The position numbers and the translations under genes were made by a program. 64,000 nt of DNA from Blastococcus sp. VKM Ac-2987. Its GTDB lineage: Bacteria; Actinomycetota; Actinomycetes; Mycobacteriales; Geodermatophilaceae. The notes beneath the pieces are model-generated. The model was not told the origin of the DNA and did no database searches. It was given only the letters and a program-made list of their open reading frames with translations. The stretch lies in NCBI RefSeq assembly GCF_026967805.1, contig NZ_JAPVBG010000003.1, forward strand, positions 248,001 through 312,000. Reading direction: 5' to 3'. How positions within the stretch are numbered: position 1 is the first letter of the stretch; each line of letters starts with the position of its first letter. Shown here piece by piece: positions 59,287 to 64,000 of this stretch.

Positions 59287-60024
59287 TCAGCGGGCCGCCC
59301 GGACGCCGTACCGGGTGAACAGCATGCCGTCCTCCTCGAGCACCTGGCGCAGCTCGAGGGGGACGACGTCGGCCAGTTCCCCGCCGAGCAGCCGGGCACC
59401 GGCCGGGCCGACCAGCGACGGCGCCATCGAGAGCGCCAGGTCGTCGACCACCCCGGCGCGCAACGCCGCACGGAACAACTGGGGGCCGCCCTCGCAGAGC
59501 ACCTGATCCAGGCCGAGCCCGGCCAGCCGGTCGAGGGCGAGCGGCAGGTCGACGTCGTCCTCGCCGCAGACCAGCACCCGCACCCCCGCCTCCGCCAGGG
59601 CGGCCCGGCGCCCGGGATCGGCCGTCCCGGTGGTGATCAGCACGGTGGGCGAGACCGCGCCGGCCACCAGCCGGTCGTCCGGTGCCAGCGAGGCCCGCCG
59701 GGACACCACCACGACCGGCGCGGTGGCCGGACGGCCGAGCTCCACCCGCAGCCGGCCGACGGCGGAGTCGGCCGTGATCGGCCGGTAGCCCTCGGCCGAC
59801 GCCGTCCCGGAGCCGACCAGGACGGCGTCGGAGAGGGCACGCAGCAGCCGGAAGACCCGCTCGTCGCCGGGGGAGCCGAGACCACCGCTACGTCCGTCCA
59901 CGGTCACGGCGCCGTCCAGGGAGGCCACGAAGTTGACCCGCAGCGATCGCCCCGGGGGCAGCCGGTAAGCCTCGACCAGCCCGGCGTCGTCCAGCTCGGC
60001 CGGTCCGGGGAGGAGGCGGCGCAT
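59287..60024 (-). CDS. RibD-like pyrimidine reductase family protein
   Basis: A 245-residue protein of the RibD_C (dihydrofolate-reductase-like) fold. NFVASLDGAVTVDGRSGGLG is the typical NADPH/substrate segment, followed by DAVLVGSGTASAEGY and the late LCEGGPQLFRAAL. No deaminase domain is present. It may reduce a pyrimidine or flavin-pathway intermediate. Its ATG overlaps the treZ stop (ATGA), an unexpected partner. Confidence 0.87.
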   Translation of the reverse strand: MRRLLPGPAELDDAGLVEAYRLPPGRSLRVNFVASLDGAVTVDGRSGGLGSPGDERVFRLLRALSDAVLVGSGTASAEGYRPITADSAVGRLRVELGRPATAPVVVVSRRASLAPDDRLVAGAVSPTVLITTGTADPGRRAALAEAGVRVLVCGEDDVDLPLALDRLAGLGLDQVLCEGGPQLFRAALRAGVVDDLALSMAPSLVGPAGARLLGGELADVVPLELRQVLEEDGMLFTRYGVRAAR

Positions 60025-61778
60025 CAGCGGGTGCTGAACACGGCCGCGCTCTCGGCGGTCAGCGTGACCGTGTCCCCGTCCACCGTCGGCAGCTCACCGG
60101 TGCTGAAGAGGACGTCGGCCACCGGCCGGTCGAGGTCGATCTCCCGCGGCTCGCCGGCCAGGTTCGCCACCACCCGCAGCGAGCCGCGGTGCACCACCAG
60201 CCAGCGGTCGGCGTCGTCCCAGGAGACCTGCACGGCGGAGAGGTCGGCGTCGACCAGGTCGGGGTGGGCGCGGCGCAGCGCCAGCAGCGACCGGTGCACC
60301 GCCAGCAGGCGCTCGTGCGGCTCCTGCGACAGCTCGGACCAGTCCAGCTTGGAGCGGGTGAAGGTCTCCGGGTCCTGCGGGTCGGGGACGACGGCGGGGT
60401 CCCAGCCGTGCTCGGCGAACTCGCCGATCCGGCCCTCGGCGGTGGCCTTGCCCAGCTCGGGCTCGGGGTGGCTGGTGAAGAACTGCCAGGGCGTGGTGGC
60501 GCCCCACTCCTCGCCCATGAAGAGCATCGGCGTGAACGGGCTGGTGAGCACCAGGGTGGCGCCCACGGCGAGCTGGCCGGGGGAGAGGGAGGCCGAGATG
60601 CGGTCGCCCACCGCGCGGTTGCCGATCTGGTCGTGGTCCTGGAGGTAGGCGAGGAACTTCCAGCCGGGCAGCCGGGCGGTGTCCACCGGCCGGCCGTGCG
60701 AGCGGCGCCGGAAGCTCGACCAGCTGCCGTCGTGGAAGAAGGCCCCGGTCAGCGTCTTGGCCAGGCCGGGCAGCCCGGCCTGCGCGAAGTCGGCGTAGTA
60801 GCCCTGGCCCTCCCCGGTCAGCGTGGTGTGCAGGGCGTGATGGAAGTCGTCGCTCCACTGGGCGGCCAGCCCGGTCCCGCCGGCCGCGCGCGGGGTGACC
60901 ATGCGCGGATCGTTGAGGTCGCTCTCGGCGATCAGGGTGAGCGGCCGGCCGACGGCGACCGACAGGCTGTCCACCTCGACGGCCATCTGCTCCAGGATGG
61001 GCACGGCGCGCTCGTCGACGAGGGCGTGCACGGCGTCCAGGCGCAGGCCGTCGACGTGCATGTCGCGCAGCCACATCAGCACGTTGTCGAGGATGTAGCG
61101 GCGAACCTCGTCGGAGTCGGGCCCGGAGAGGTTGATCGACTCGCCCCAGGTGTTGGACCCGCCCTCGGCGAAGATCGGGAAGTACAGCGGCAGGTAGTTC
61201 CCGGACGGCCCGAGGTGGTTGTAGACGACGTCCTGGATGACGCCCAGGCCCTGCTGGTGGCAGGCGTCGACGAACCGCTGGTAGGCCTCCGGGCCGCCGT
61301 ACTCCTCCTGCACCGCGTACCAGAGCACGCCGTCGTAGCCCCAGTTGTGCGTGCCGTTGAAGGCGTTGACCGGCAGCAGCTCGACGAAGTCGACGCCGAG
61401 GCGCACCAGGTGGCCCAGCCGGCCGATCGCCGCGTCGAGGGTGCCCTCGGGCGTGAAGGTGCCGATGTGCATCTCGTAGACCGACCCGCCGGCCAGCGGC
61501 CGCCCGGTCCAGGCGTCGTCGCCCCACGTGTAGGCGGACGGGTCGAACCGGCGCGACAGGCCGTGCACGCCCTCGGGCTGCCGCCGCGAGCGCGGGTCTG
61601 GGCGGGGGGTGTCGTCGTCGCCCAGCAGGAAGCCGTAGTCGGCGTCGGGCCGGGCGTCGATCTCGGCCCGCCACCAGCCGCCGTCGTCCCGGCGCATGTC
61701 GTGGACGGTGCCGTCGACCTGCACGCGCACGCGCTCGGGCAGCGGGGCCCAGACGGTGAACTCGACGGGAGCGGGCAT
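60024..61778 (-). CDS. treZ: Malto-oligosyltrehalose trehalohydrolase
   Basis: A 584-residue GH13 enzyme that releases trehalose from malto-oligosyltrehalose. It starts with an E-set/CBM48-like domain ([17 protein letters not shown]). GH13 motifs: [25 protein letters not shown] with the nucleophile Asp near residue 246, [12 protein letters not shown] with the acid Glu, and [18 protein letters not shown] 61778 has TGGAGG upstream. The usual partner treY and debranching treX are not in the window; the RibD-like gene is coupled downstream instead. Confidence 0.94.
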
Positions 61779-62075: not shown

Positions 62076-62969
62076 ATGCCCCGTAGTCGGCTGAATGCAG
62101 CCTTGCGTTCGCGCTTGCAGCCCGCGCACCGCCGGATCGCCGGGCTCCTGCCGCCGACCGCCCGGCGGCGGTACCTCTACCTGGCCGGTCACCACCGCCT
62201 GCCGCGGCTGCGGGATCCGCGGACGTTCACCGAGAAGGTCAACTGGCGCATCCTGCGGGACCGCCGGCCCGAGCTGGCGTGGACGTGCGACAAGCTGGCG
62301 ATGAAGGAGTACGCGGCCCGCGTCCAGCAGGAGGCGGGTGTGGCCGTGCCCGAGACGCTGTGGTCGGGGGAGGACCTGGGGGCCGTGGCCGGTCGCGCGT
62401 TCGACCGGGCCTGGGTGCTCAAGCCCAACCACCGGAGCGGCCTGGTGCGCTTCGGGGCCGCCGCGCAGCCGATGGATGCCCCGACGGTAGCGGCGACGCG
62501 GGACTGGCTGGGCGACGACCAGAGCGTGCTGCTGGGGGAGTGGGCCTACAGCCAGGCCCGGCAGTTGTTCCTCGTCGAGGAGGACATCGCCGGGGCCGGT
62601 CCGCTGGACGACTACAAGTTCTTCGTCTTCCACGGGGAGGTCGCCGCGATCCAGGTCGATCGAGGCAGGTTCACCAGGCAGCACGTGCGCAACTACTACT
62701 CACCCGAGTGGGAGCCCATCACCGTCCAGAAGACGGTGCCGAGCGGCCCGCCGACCGTGGCGCCGGGCAACCTGGCCGCCATGCTGCACGCGGCGGAGGT
62801 CCTCGGGCGCTCCTTCGACTTCATGCGGGTCGACCTGTACAGCACGGGGGACACGGTCTGGTTCGGCGAGCTCACGCCGTACCCGGGCGGGGGCGTCACG
62901 CGGTTCGAGCCCCCCGAGTTCGACTCGTGGCTCGGCGAGCGGTGGTCCCTGCCGACGCTGTCCCGCTGA
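62076..62969 (+). CDS. TupA-like ATP-grasp enzyme
   Basis: A 297-residue protein of the TupA-like ATP-grasp family. Recognisable parts: LRDPRTFTEKVNWRILRDRR, DKLAMKEYAARV, VLKPNHRSG as nucleotide-binding strand, DYKFFVFHGEV, and the metal-binding end MRVDLYSTGDTVWFGELTPYPGGG. These enzymes usually join an amino acid to a carboxyl group on a cell-surface polymer or glycan. ATG 62076 has AGGAGGA upstream. The neighbouring convergent PP-loop gene and the gene at the right edge suggest a surface-polysaccharide locus. Confidence 0.85.
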   Translation: MPRSRLNAALRSRLQPAHRRIAGLLPPTARRRYLYLAGHHRLPRLRDPRTFTEKVNWRILRDRRPELAWTCDKLAMKEYAARVQQEAGVAVPETLWSGEDLGAVAGRAFDRAWVLKPNHRSGLVRFGAAAQPMDAPTVAATRDWLGDDQSVLLGEWAYSQARQLFLVEEDIAGAGPLDDYKFFVFHGEVAAIQVDRGRFTRQHVRNYYSPEWEPITVQKTVPSGPPTVAPGNLAAMLHAAEVLGRSFDFMRVDLYSTGDTVWFGELTPYPGGGVTRFEPPEFDSWLGERWSLPTLSR

Positions 62970-63012
62970 GTCCCAGCGGCGGGCGACGGCGGGGTGGCCG
63001 GACCGTCCGGCG

Positions 63013-63753
63013 TCAGCGCCGGCGCAGCACGTCCAGCGCCGCGGCGGGCTCCCGCACCGCCTTCGCGGCCTTGCGCAAAAGGTCGCGGACCGCGACCAGG
63101 ACGGGGTTGGCGAAGCGGACCCCCTCGCGGTGCGTCAGCCGGCAGGGACGGCACCGCCCGCACGGCCTGCCGAGCAGCGGGCGGAAGCAGAACCAGCGCA
63201 GCAGGAGCAGGTCCAGGAAGCCGGCGGACCGGGCGGCCTCCCGCATCTCGTCCTTGGTCAGGTGGATGACGGGGAACGACCAGAACCGGAAGAGCTCCGA
63301 CTCCGGTGATCCGTTCAGCACGCCCGGCTCGGCGAAGATCCTGCGCTGCCAGTCGCTGAGGCCGGACTCGTAGCGCTCGATGCAGAGCTCGACGCCGGAC
63401 CACCCGAGCGCTCCAGCCGGGCCGCTGAGCCACACGTACTGGGTGCCCATCGACGTCTCCCGGCGCAGGCCTTCCCCGATCGCCGCGTCCTGCGGCGCCG
63501 GCGGGTGATCGCTCGCCAGGACCACGCGGGTCGGGGCCAGGAGGGACGGGTCCGCCAGCCGGGCGAGCAGCCCCGCGCGCATGGCCGCCATGGCGCGCAG
63601 CTCGAAGAGCGTGCTGGGCCGGCCGGTGTCGATCACGTAGATCGGCTGCACGGGGCGCCGCTCGACGAGCAGCAGGTGCATCAACCGGAACGAGGAGTCC
63701 CAGCCGCCGGTCCACAGGAGCTGCACGCGATCGGTGTCAGGTCGTCCGGTCAT
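63013..63753 (-). CDS. QueC-like PP-loop ATPase with zinc site
   Basis: A 246-residue protein. The PP-loop is WTGGWDSSFRL (residues 14-24), a variant of SGGxDS that binds ATP pyrophosphate. Cys189, Cys198, Cys201 and Cys204 form C-x8-C-x2-C-x2-C, the zinc site of QueC (7-cyano-7-deazaguanine synthase). The middle differs from classical QueC, and no queD, queE or queF is near, so it may activate another carboxylate. ATG 63753; TAGCAT lies eight bases upstream on its strand. It converges with the ATP-grasp gene with a 43-base gap. Confidence 0.75.
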   Translation of the reverse strand: MTGRPDTDRVQLLWTGGWDSSFRLMHLLLVERRPVQPIYVIDTGRPSTLFELRAMAAMRAGLLARLADPSLLAPTRVVLASDHPPAPQDAAIGEGLRRETSMGTQYVWLSGPAGALGWSGVELCIERYESGLSDWQRRIFAEPGVLNGSPESELFRFWSFPVIHLTKDEMREAARSAGFLDLLLLRWFCFRPLLGRPCGRCRPCRLTHREGVRFANPVLVAVRDLLRKAAKAVREPAAALDVLRRR

Positions 63754-63924: not shown

Positions 63925-64000
63925 ATGGTGCCGACCGGCAACACCCGGCGATTGATCATCGCGCTCAGCGCGGCTGCCGTCGTCATCAACATCGTGAGCT
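63925..64000 (+). CDS. Start of a membrane-anchored protein (cut by right edge)
   Basis: The first 25 codons are visible: a short polar start (VPTGNTRR), then a hydrophobic segment LIIALSAAAVVINIVS that looks like a transmembrane helix or signal anchor. ATG 63925 has AGGAGA upstream; GTG 63928 is an alternative. An inverted repeat CTACCC/GGGTAG (63886-63912) abuts the ribosome site. The rest of the gene is outside the window, so no function can be given. Confidence 0.6.
   Translation, partial: MVPTGNTRRLIIALSAAAVVINIVS

Follow-up and report, generated by a model that had tools for sequence, protein, structure and literature searches.

A QueC-like PP-loop protein and a TupA-like ATP-grasp ligase as candidate partners in surface-polysaccharide decoration

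We analysed a window of 64,000 nucleotides from Blastococcus sp. VKM Ac-2987 (G000:C6:248001-312000, in a 4.6-Mb genome of 12 contigs), which carries near its right edge the genes for a TupA-like ATP-grasp ligase (TupA1) and a QueC-like PP-loop protein. We propose, at a probability of roughly one half, that the PP-loop protein would act as an ATP-consuming, amide-forming enzyme that decorates a uronic-acid exopolysaccharide together with ATP-grasp ligases. The two enzymes probably decorate a surface sugar polymer jointly, because genes of both kinds are also neighbours in bacteria that are only distant relatives, where they frequently lie among genes for surface polysaccharides.

Recent work shows that evolution has reused the QueC scaffold, in preQ0 synthesis and in protein deazaguanylation in defence. 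We rate the family of the window protein, marked by the signature WTGGWDS ... PCGxCxPC, as a further repurposing of this scaffold. If this is correct, surface-polymer chemistry joins the uses of the QueC scaffold through a branch spread over many phyla, and family members would no longer be misread as queuosine genes. The pair would also offer two directly testable enzymes for decorating bacterial exopolysaccharides with amides, as few organisms are known to do.

The gene pair and its PP-loop protein

The original prediction placed a TupA-like ATP-grasp gene next to a PP-loop gene that keeps the zinc cysteines of QueC, and both parts of this description were confirmed. The TupA1 reading frame (62076-62969, forward strand; 297 aa) has a strong AGGAGG ribosome-binding site just 5' of it. 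In a Pfam profile search its product matched PF14305 (ATPgrasp_TupA) at E 1.4e-31 and 110.3 bits against a cut-off of 25, and it retains K54, D72, K73, K116, E155, E168, D179, K181, R251, D253, E265 and T267, which are invariant in a 20-sequence alignment; the score and the intact residues together place TupA1 in PF14305. The PP-loop gene (63013-63753, reverse strand; 246 aa) was defined by its reading frame, a family alignment, a profile match and a structure model. The two genes are convergent, 43 bp apart and not co-transcribed. Judged by dN/dS, both look to be under selection, with values of 0.23-0.34 for TupA1 and 0.29-0.35 for the PP-loop gene against three Blastococcus loci each (reference gene treZ, 0.26-0.33 against two).

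In the PP-loop protein, the pyrophosphate-binding motif TGGWDS occupies residues 15-20 (63694-63711, reverse strand), and the zinc site, predicted from sequence, has the form C189-x8-C198-x2-C201-x2-C204 (63142-63189, reverse strand). Alignment of 64 members (63 of the 79 non-redundant members plus the window protein) showed all four cysteines in 64/64 sequences, G17, D19 and S20 in 63/64 with a gap in the remaining row, and T15 in 62/64. Conservation throughout this alignment extends to WTGGWDS, Y39, R45, S47, E51, GxQY at 103-106, P161, K167 and WFC..P....PCGxCxPC. The motif C-x(5-14)-CxxCxxC was found in 91/91 family members, a count that, like the family tree, leaves out one locus with no called anchor gene (L071).

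The window protein scored below threshold against both Pfam QueC (PF06508; E 0.043, 13.7 bits, cut-off 22) and NCBIfam TIGR00364 (13.5 bits, cut-off 150.3), and PF06508 was the commonest Pfam match of the family (61 of 64 members at E 0.1, best 9.4e-8). An hhalign comparison aligned 204 columns of the 64-member profile with 12 canonical QueC sequences (probability 96.2, E 2.4e-9), so the protein is, by profile comparison, a true QueC relative.

The structure model (mean pLDDT 94.2) was nearest in fold to Cap9 (Z 11.2), YcfA (10.3), QueC (9.5) and QatC (9.4); rows below Z 8 were unused, and families missing from the list are not thereby excluded. LarE and ThiI, at Z 8.4-9.3 in this comparison, would fit a sulfur- or tRNA-type PP-loop enzyme in the style of LarE, TtuA or ThiI whose proximity to an ATP-grasp is incidental. 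This we hold to be improbable, given the QueC-type zinc cysteines in every aligned member, the QueC identity of the profile match, and the linkage of the family to sugar ATP-grasps and to no sulfur genes. The fold list also contains 8wex, a solved member of the WbpG/PseA group of N-acetyl sugar amidotransferases, which are likewise PP-loop enzymes from O-antigen clusters (PMC13329287). A protein of this type would carry out amidation or amidino-group formation on an N-acetyl sugar, instead of acting on a carboxylate with the ATP-grasp. We consider this unlikely: the 8wex match is weak (Foldseek E 0.14, TM 0.30), none of the 64 members matched this group in Pfam or NCBIfam at E 0.1, and the cysteine pattern stated for it, CxxC(x)6CxC (PMC13329287), differs from C-x8-CxxCxxC in the window protein.

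Departure from canonical QueC

Homology over the full length and the presence of the zinc site could be taken to mean an ordinary QueC producing preQ0, a reading to which we give next to no probability; we rejected it on absent motifs, sub-cut-off scores and the lack of QueD, QueF and TGT in the genome. The motifs VPxRN, YPDC and YxQxHxxE were each found in 0/91 family members and in 12/12 canonical sequences (E. coli QueC plus the 11 of 30 loci whose frame the pattern found). In the active-site comparison with QueC, the zinc cysteines are kept and these substrate motifs are absent. In E. coli QueC, R99 and Y131 lie within two of the motifs and are essential, and mutating the substrate motifs abolishes its function (PMC13329287). 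The TGGWDS of the window protein is a conservative variant of the phosphate loop: the strict form SGGxDS occurred in 1/91 members and [TS][GS]GxDS in 85/91; the SGGxDS count in the canonical set is circular, the other 19 of 30 loci having been dropped by the frame-finding pattern.

Profile searches of all contigs for QueD (PF01242), QueF (PF14489) and TGT (PF01702) gave no match in the genome; as positive controls, these profiles matched in 9, 8 and 14 of 14 known genomes, respectively. Judged by these searches, the genome is not that of a queuosine maker. The sole other PF06508 match of the genome is an asparagine synthase. The absence of deazaguanine-pathway neighbours claimed in the original prediction thus holds genome-wide for QueD, QueF and TGT, and the sign of an ordinary QueC named in that prediction, queD/queE/queF genes in a genome lacking a further QueC, was not found in the QueD, QueF and TGT searches.

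The published map of PF06508 comprises canonical, QatC, Cap9, LarE, PfkB-linked, WbpG and GMP-synthase clusters, together with three small clusters from archaea, and in the portion of that source available no cluster is described with the WTGGWDS...PCGxCxPC signature or with an ATP-grasp partner (PMC13329287). We found no paper on the QueC-like/ATP-grasp pair or on the WTGGWDS family in the open-licence literature; they may be in print elsewhere.

Distribution and linkage to ATP-grasp genes

Scanning 84,980 species genomes with two exact seed patterns gave 98 confirmed stretches, of which 80 were kept, and identified at least 77 loci of the QueC-related family, a lower bound that is biased to sequences close to the seeds. 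Linkage was counted from six-frame profile matches. A TupA or ATPgrasp_ST domain lay no more than 1.3 kb from the PP-loop domain at 20 of the 77 loci, in seven phyla (Actinomycetota, Pseudomonadota, Synergistota, Balneolota, Chlorobiota, Lentisphaerota and Bacillota): at 9/9 Geodermatophilaceae loci and at 11 of the 68 outside Geodermatophilaceae. Such an ATP-grasp was found at 0/30 canonical actinobacterial QueC loci, searched with flanks of up to 1.5 kb, one of the 30 having a cut flank (2216 bases). At the 68 outside loci, ATP-grasp domains thinned out with distance from the PP-loop domain: 11 were found in the 141 kb at 0-1 kb, 1 in the 130 kb at 1-2 kb and 2 in the 883 kb at 2-10 kb. All 9 ATP-grasp labels sampled were confirmed over the Pfam cut-off. 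Locus L110 was not counted as adjacent, as 2.6-3.3 kb separate its ATPgrasp_ST from the closest PP-loop genes.

Several pairs are arranged operon-like. At L066, L067, L068 and L070 the PP-loop gene shares 4 bp with an ATPgrasp_ST gene, and at L065, L072, L075, L079, L091 and L130 the two lie on one strand with gaps of 9-55 bp. A Synergistales locus has, in order and on one strand, TupA, three PP-loop genes and TupA. Within Geodermatophilaceae the PP-loop gene is present in 10/112 genomes, and in all ten a TupA or ATPgrasp_ST lies no more than 3.1 kb away; nine have TupA, and G186 instead has an ATPgrasp_ST that overlaps the PP-loop gene by 4 bp. By this survey of gene neighbours, the pairing predicted from the window alone recurs, both in these genomes (10/10) and at the 11 outside loci. 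A TupA homologue is present in 44/112 Geodermatophilaceae genomes. The window genome itself has a third TupA on another contig (G000:C1), in an exopolysaccharide-type locus where a PF03721 gene lies 8.9 kb away and no PP-loop gene adjoins it. In G245, two shortened TupA paralogues with open frames stand beside a full copy (G245:C224:45896-47428, L049), and their matches skip approximately residues 60-157 and 63-131.

The patchy distribution in Geodermatophilaceae, together with the structural rank of Cap9 and the nearness of QatC, would suit a role in defence like that of Cap9 or QatC, in which a small carboxylate is coupled to the N-terminus of a partner protein, and the PADLOC QatC model was matched by 1 of the 64 members. 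At E 0.01 the window gene matched no PADLOC model, no neighbour at the window was seen to resemble qatA/B/D or a CD-NTase, and no relative was found in the viral contigs, phages or plasmids searched. With the deazaguanine-binding motifs absent as well and QueD not found in the genome, a defence role has only a slim chance of being correct.

At 56 of the 77 loci, including nearly all Lysobacteraceae copies, no TupA or ATPgrasp_ST was found in the fetched DNA, and the PP-loop enzyme can therefore work without a linked ATP-grasp. Lysobacteraceae make up about a third of the family list, and the PP-loop gene stands alone there. In the family tree, which was built rapidly and leaves many forks open, linked rows are clustered, the ATP-grasp label changing 10 times compared with 23.6 in shuffles, with 4 changes forced by starred branches; independent couplings are therefore fewer than linked loci. 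The window protein groups with sequences from Geodermatophilaceae and Thioalkalivibrio (14 rows, SH-aLRT 90), and every row of this group is linked.

Same-strand runs of two to four PP-loop paralogues occur at 9/77 loci, and a fused double-length protein was seen once. This 517-aa protein of Geodermatophilus sp. YIM 151500 (L065:9173-10726, also listed as L050:10201-11754) joins two QueC-like domains, and its gene adjoins a third, single QueC-like copy and an ATPgrasp_ST gene. A Nitrospinaceae MAG (L080:3115-6530) has four consecutive QueC-like genes and a convergent gene whose 243-aa product is ATP-grasp-like by eye but matched neither Pfam nor NCBIfam at the limits applied. Approximately 15 Lysobacteraceae loci (e.g. 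L113:7062-9726) have a lone QueC-like gene divergent from a set of three genes, encoding an iron-containing redox enzyme (PF14518), a small protein that is VOC-like by eye and a class-III aminotransferase (PF00202). At L088:10856-11677 and other Steroidobacteraceae loci, a lone QueC-like gene precedes a gene of the PEP-mutase family (PF13714).

The trehalose-operon site

The original prediction proposed a check for glycosyltransferases and Wzx/Wzy to the right of the window, and we found treY and glgX/treX instead. Rightward past the PP-loop gene come a membrane protein, a second TupA copy (TupA2; 86% identical, window-equivalent 64954-65904, past the right edge), treY (L002:5932-8265, past the window; TIGR02401 TreY, 879 bits, over cut-off) and glgX/treX. 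On the left lies treZ (60024-61778, reverse strand; TIGR02402 TreZ, 750 bits, over cut-off). Since the membrane protein, TupA2 and then treY follow past the edge, with treZ on the left, the genes for TupA1, the PP-loop protein, the membrane protein and TupA2 form a four-gene insert between treY and treZ, and the right side is therefore trehalose operon and no polysaccharide cluster. Glycosyltransferase-like genes start approximately 20 kb further right, from a look at the sequence.

All 23 genomes of the genus have treY. It is directly followed by treZ in four (G249, G300, G302, G304) and has TupA or PP-loop module genes beside it in five (G000, G016, G158, G245, G307); in the remaining 14, neither treZ nor module genes were found within the 1.5-kb treY flank. 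The position of the module within the treXYZ operon in those five genomes would agree with an action on glycogen or trehalose. This reading also has little to recommend it: two of the five (G016, G307) carry two TupA copies at the trehalose site without a PP-loop gene, treY-treZ is uninterrupted in four genomes, and module genes are located elsewhere in other genera. G245 has a second module of PP-loop, membrane and TupA genes on a separate contig, with only a 67-aa treY fragment (L048:10571-10774, G245:C196) alongside, which suggests that this module was copied from the trehalose site.

The gene at the window edge, described in the original prediction as membrane-anchored, encodes a polytopic protein of 255 aa with no single anchor; only its start lies in the window (63925-64000, forward strand), and it continues to window-equivalent 64692 (L002:3925-4692). 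Its model is helical (pLDDT 81.8), with no Foldseek match at E 0.001, and the protein has no Pfam family at E 0.01 (best E 0.039). Conserved residues of its family, in or near helices, are E65, D115-E116, H121-E122, E187, D195 and E213-E214-E217. The gene adjoins the PP-loop gene in 4/4 Blastococcus loci and only there, which does not bear out its predicted part as a joint partner. Homologues at E 1e-5 or better are found in 29/112 Geodermatophilaceae genomes, and closer ones (E <1e-30) in five Modestobacter genomes with the PP-loop gene at first suggested co-inheritance. We rejected the gene as a shared partner, as these closer homologues lie beside unrelated genes, away from the PP-loop gene. 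The closer homologues also occur in genomes that lack the PP-loop gene (G190, G140, G305, G309) and are missing from two that have it (G186, G202).

Exopolysaccharide clusters in related bacteria

In five Modestobacter genomes (L051-L055), the PP-loop gene lies inside a conserved exopolysaccharide cluster. This encodes a glycosyltransferase, a Wzx-like protein (PF13440), a pyruvyltransferase (PF04230), and hexapeptide and type-3 (Acyl_transf_3) acyltransferases, and continues with another glycosyltransferase, an ABC exporter, TupA and, in all but L055, ATPgrasp_ST, placed to either side of the PP-loop gene, and then Wzz. In G048, G276 and G280 a UDP-sugar dehydrogenase gene (PF03721) lies on the PP-loop contig, at 17, 28 and 31 kb respectively, whereas G099 and G092 have theirs on another contig. 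At the Thioalkalivibrio locus (L075), one strand carries genes for an epimerase, an ABC transporter, ATPgrasp_ST, the PP-loop protein, an AMP-binding-like protein, a glycosyltransferase-like protein and a PF03721 UDP-sugar dehydrogenase, the last 3.9 kb from the PP-loop gene. Among 116 neighbour genes sampled (of 145 neighbour proteins), there was a modest excess of glycosyltransferases, with GT2 in 7.

The surface-polymer modification put forward in the original prediction thus fits the Modestobacter and Thioalkalivibrio clusters, but not the DNA to the right of the window, which is trehalose operon. The nitrile- or amide-type product it named did not gain support; the amide in our proposal is one that we infer.

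Proposed function

PP-loop enzymes of the QueC branch form an acyl-AMP that is passed to ammonia or an amine, as is established for QueC and Cap9, and TupA-like ATP-grasps form an acyl phosphate. By analogy with this superfamily chemistry, the zinc-bearing QueC relative would activate a carboxylate with ATP as an acyl-AMP and form an amide from it with ammonia or an amine. A further amide bond would be made, by way of an acyl phosphate, by the adjoining TupA-like ATP-grasp. Both enzymes may decorate a surface polysaccharide containing uronic acid, or produce a small amine that is attached to it. In the simplest joint scheme, the PP-loop enzyme would make or lengthen the amine partner, or amidate a second carboxylate, and the ATP-grasp would then join the amine partner to the uronic acid, before or during export. 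In the lineage of the window, the module between treY and treZ would serve a polymer encoded elsewhere in the genome.

Precedents for both halves of this scheme come from two reports: the TupA-like ATP-grasp domain of Cj1438C amidates capsule glucuronic acid with serinol or ethanolamine phosphate (PMC11800379), and Cap9 links a carboxylate to a protein amine (PMC13329287). Against joint action stand the convergent orientation of the window genes within a trehalose operon, the 56 loci without an ATP-grasp, the modest size of the glycosyltransferase excess among neighbours, and the third TupA of the window genome, which has no PP-loop gene beside it.

A more speculative scheme, which we regard as possible but doubtful, is a modular amide-assembly line, in which QueC-like acyl-AMP ligases would pass to TupA or ATPgrasp_ST acyl-phosphate ligases, each paralogue adding one amide-linked unit to a string that ends on a uronic acid. 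If true, this would be a template-free, two-chemistry route to peptide-like decorations on sugar polymers; we found no description of such a scheme in the open-licence literature.

Comparison with known systems

With canonical QueC (PF06508 cluster 1), the window family shares the PP-loop fold, the C-x8-CxxCxxC zinc site and the conserved TK/NK lysine region. It differs in having TGGWDS for SGGxDS and GxQY where QueC has VPxRN, in lacking YPDC and YxQxHxxE, and in scoring below the PF06508 and TIGR00364 cut-offs. Cap9 and QatC are the nearest folds, and Cap9 is reported to use the scaffold for amide formation (PMC13329287). Cap9 retains the canonical motifs, whereas the window family is without them, and the window gene has no adjacent CD-NTase as in type IV CBASS, being flanked instead by TupA, the membrane protein and treYZ. 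QatC, described as having the zinc pattern C(x)19CGxCxxRR and long extensions at its termini (PMC13329287), contrasts with the window protein, which has C-x8-CxxCxxC and a length of 246 aa. WbpG/PseA resembles it as a PP-loop enzyme from surface polysaccharide clusters, but differs in its cysteine pattern and matches its fold weakly.

On the ATP-grasp side, Cj1438C of Campylobacter jejuni shares its Pfam-type domain with TupA1. There the domain is fused to a glycosyltransferase, whereas TupA1 is a separate protein, and the available part of the report mentions no QueC-like partner (PMC11800379). ATPgrasp_ST (PF14397, sugar-transfer associated ATP-grasp) is the most frequent same-strand partner of the family's PP-loop genes, whereas the window pair has TupA.
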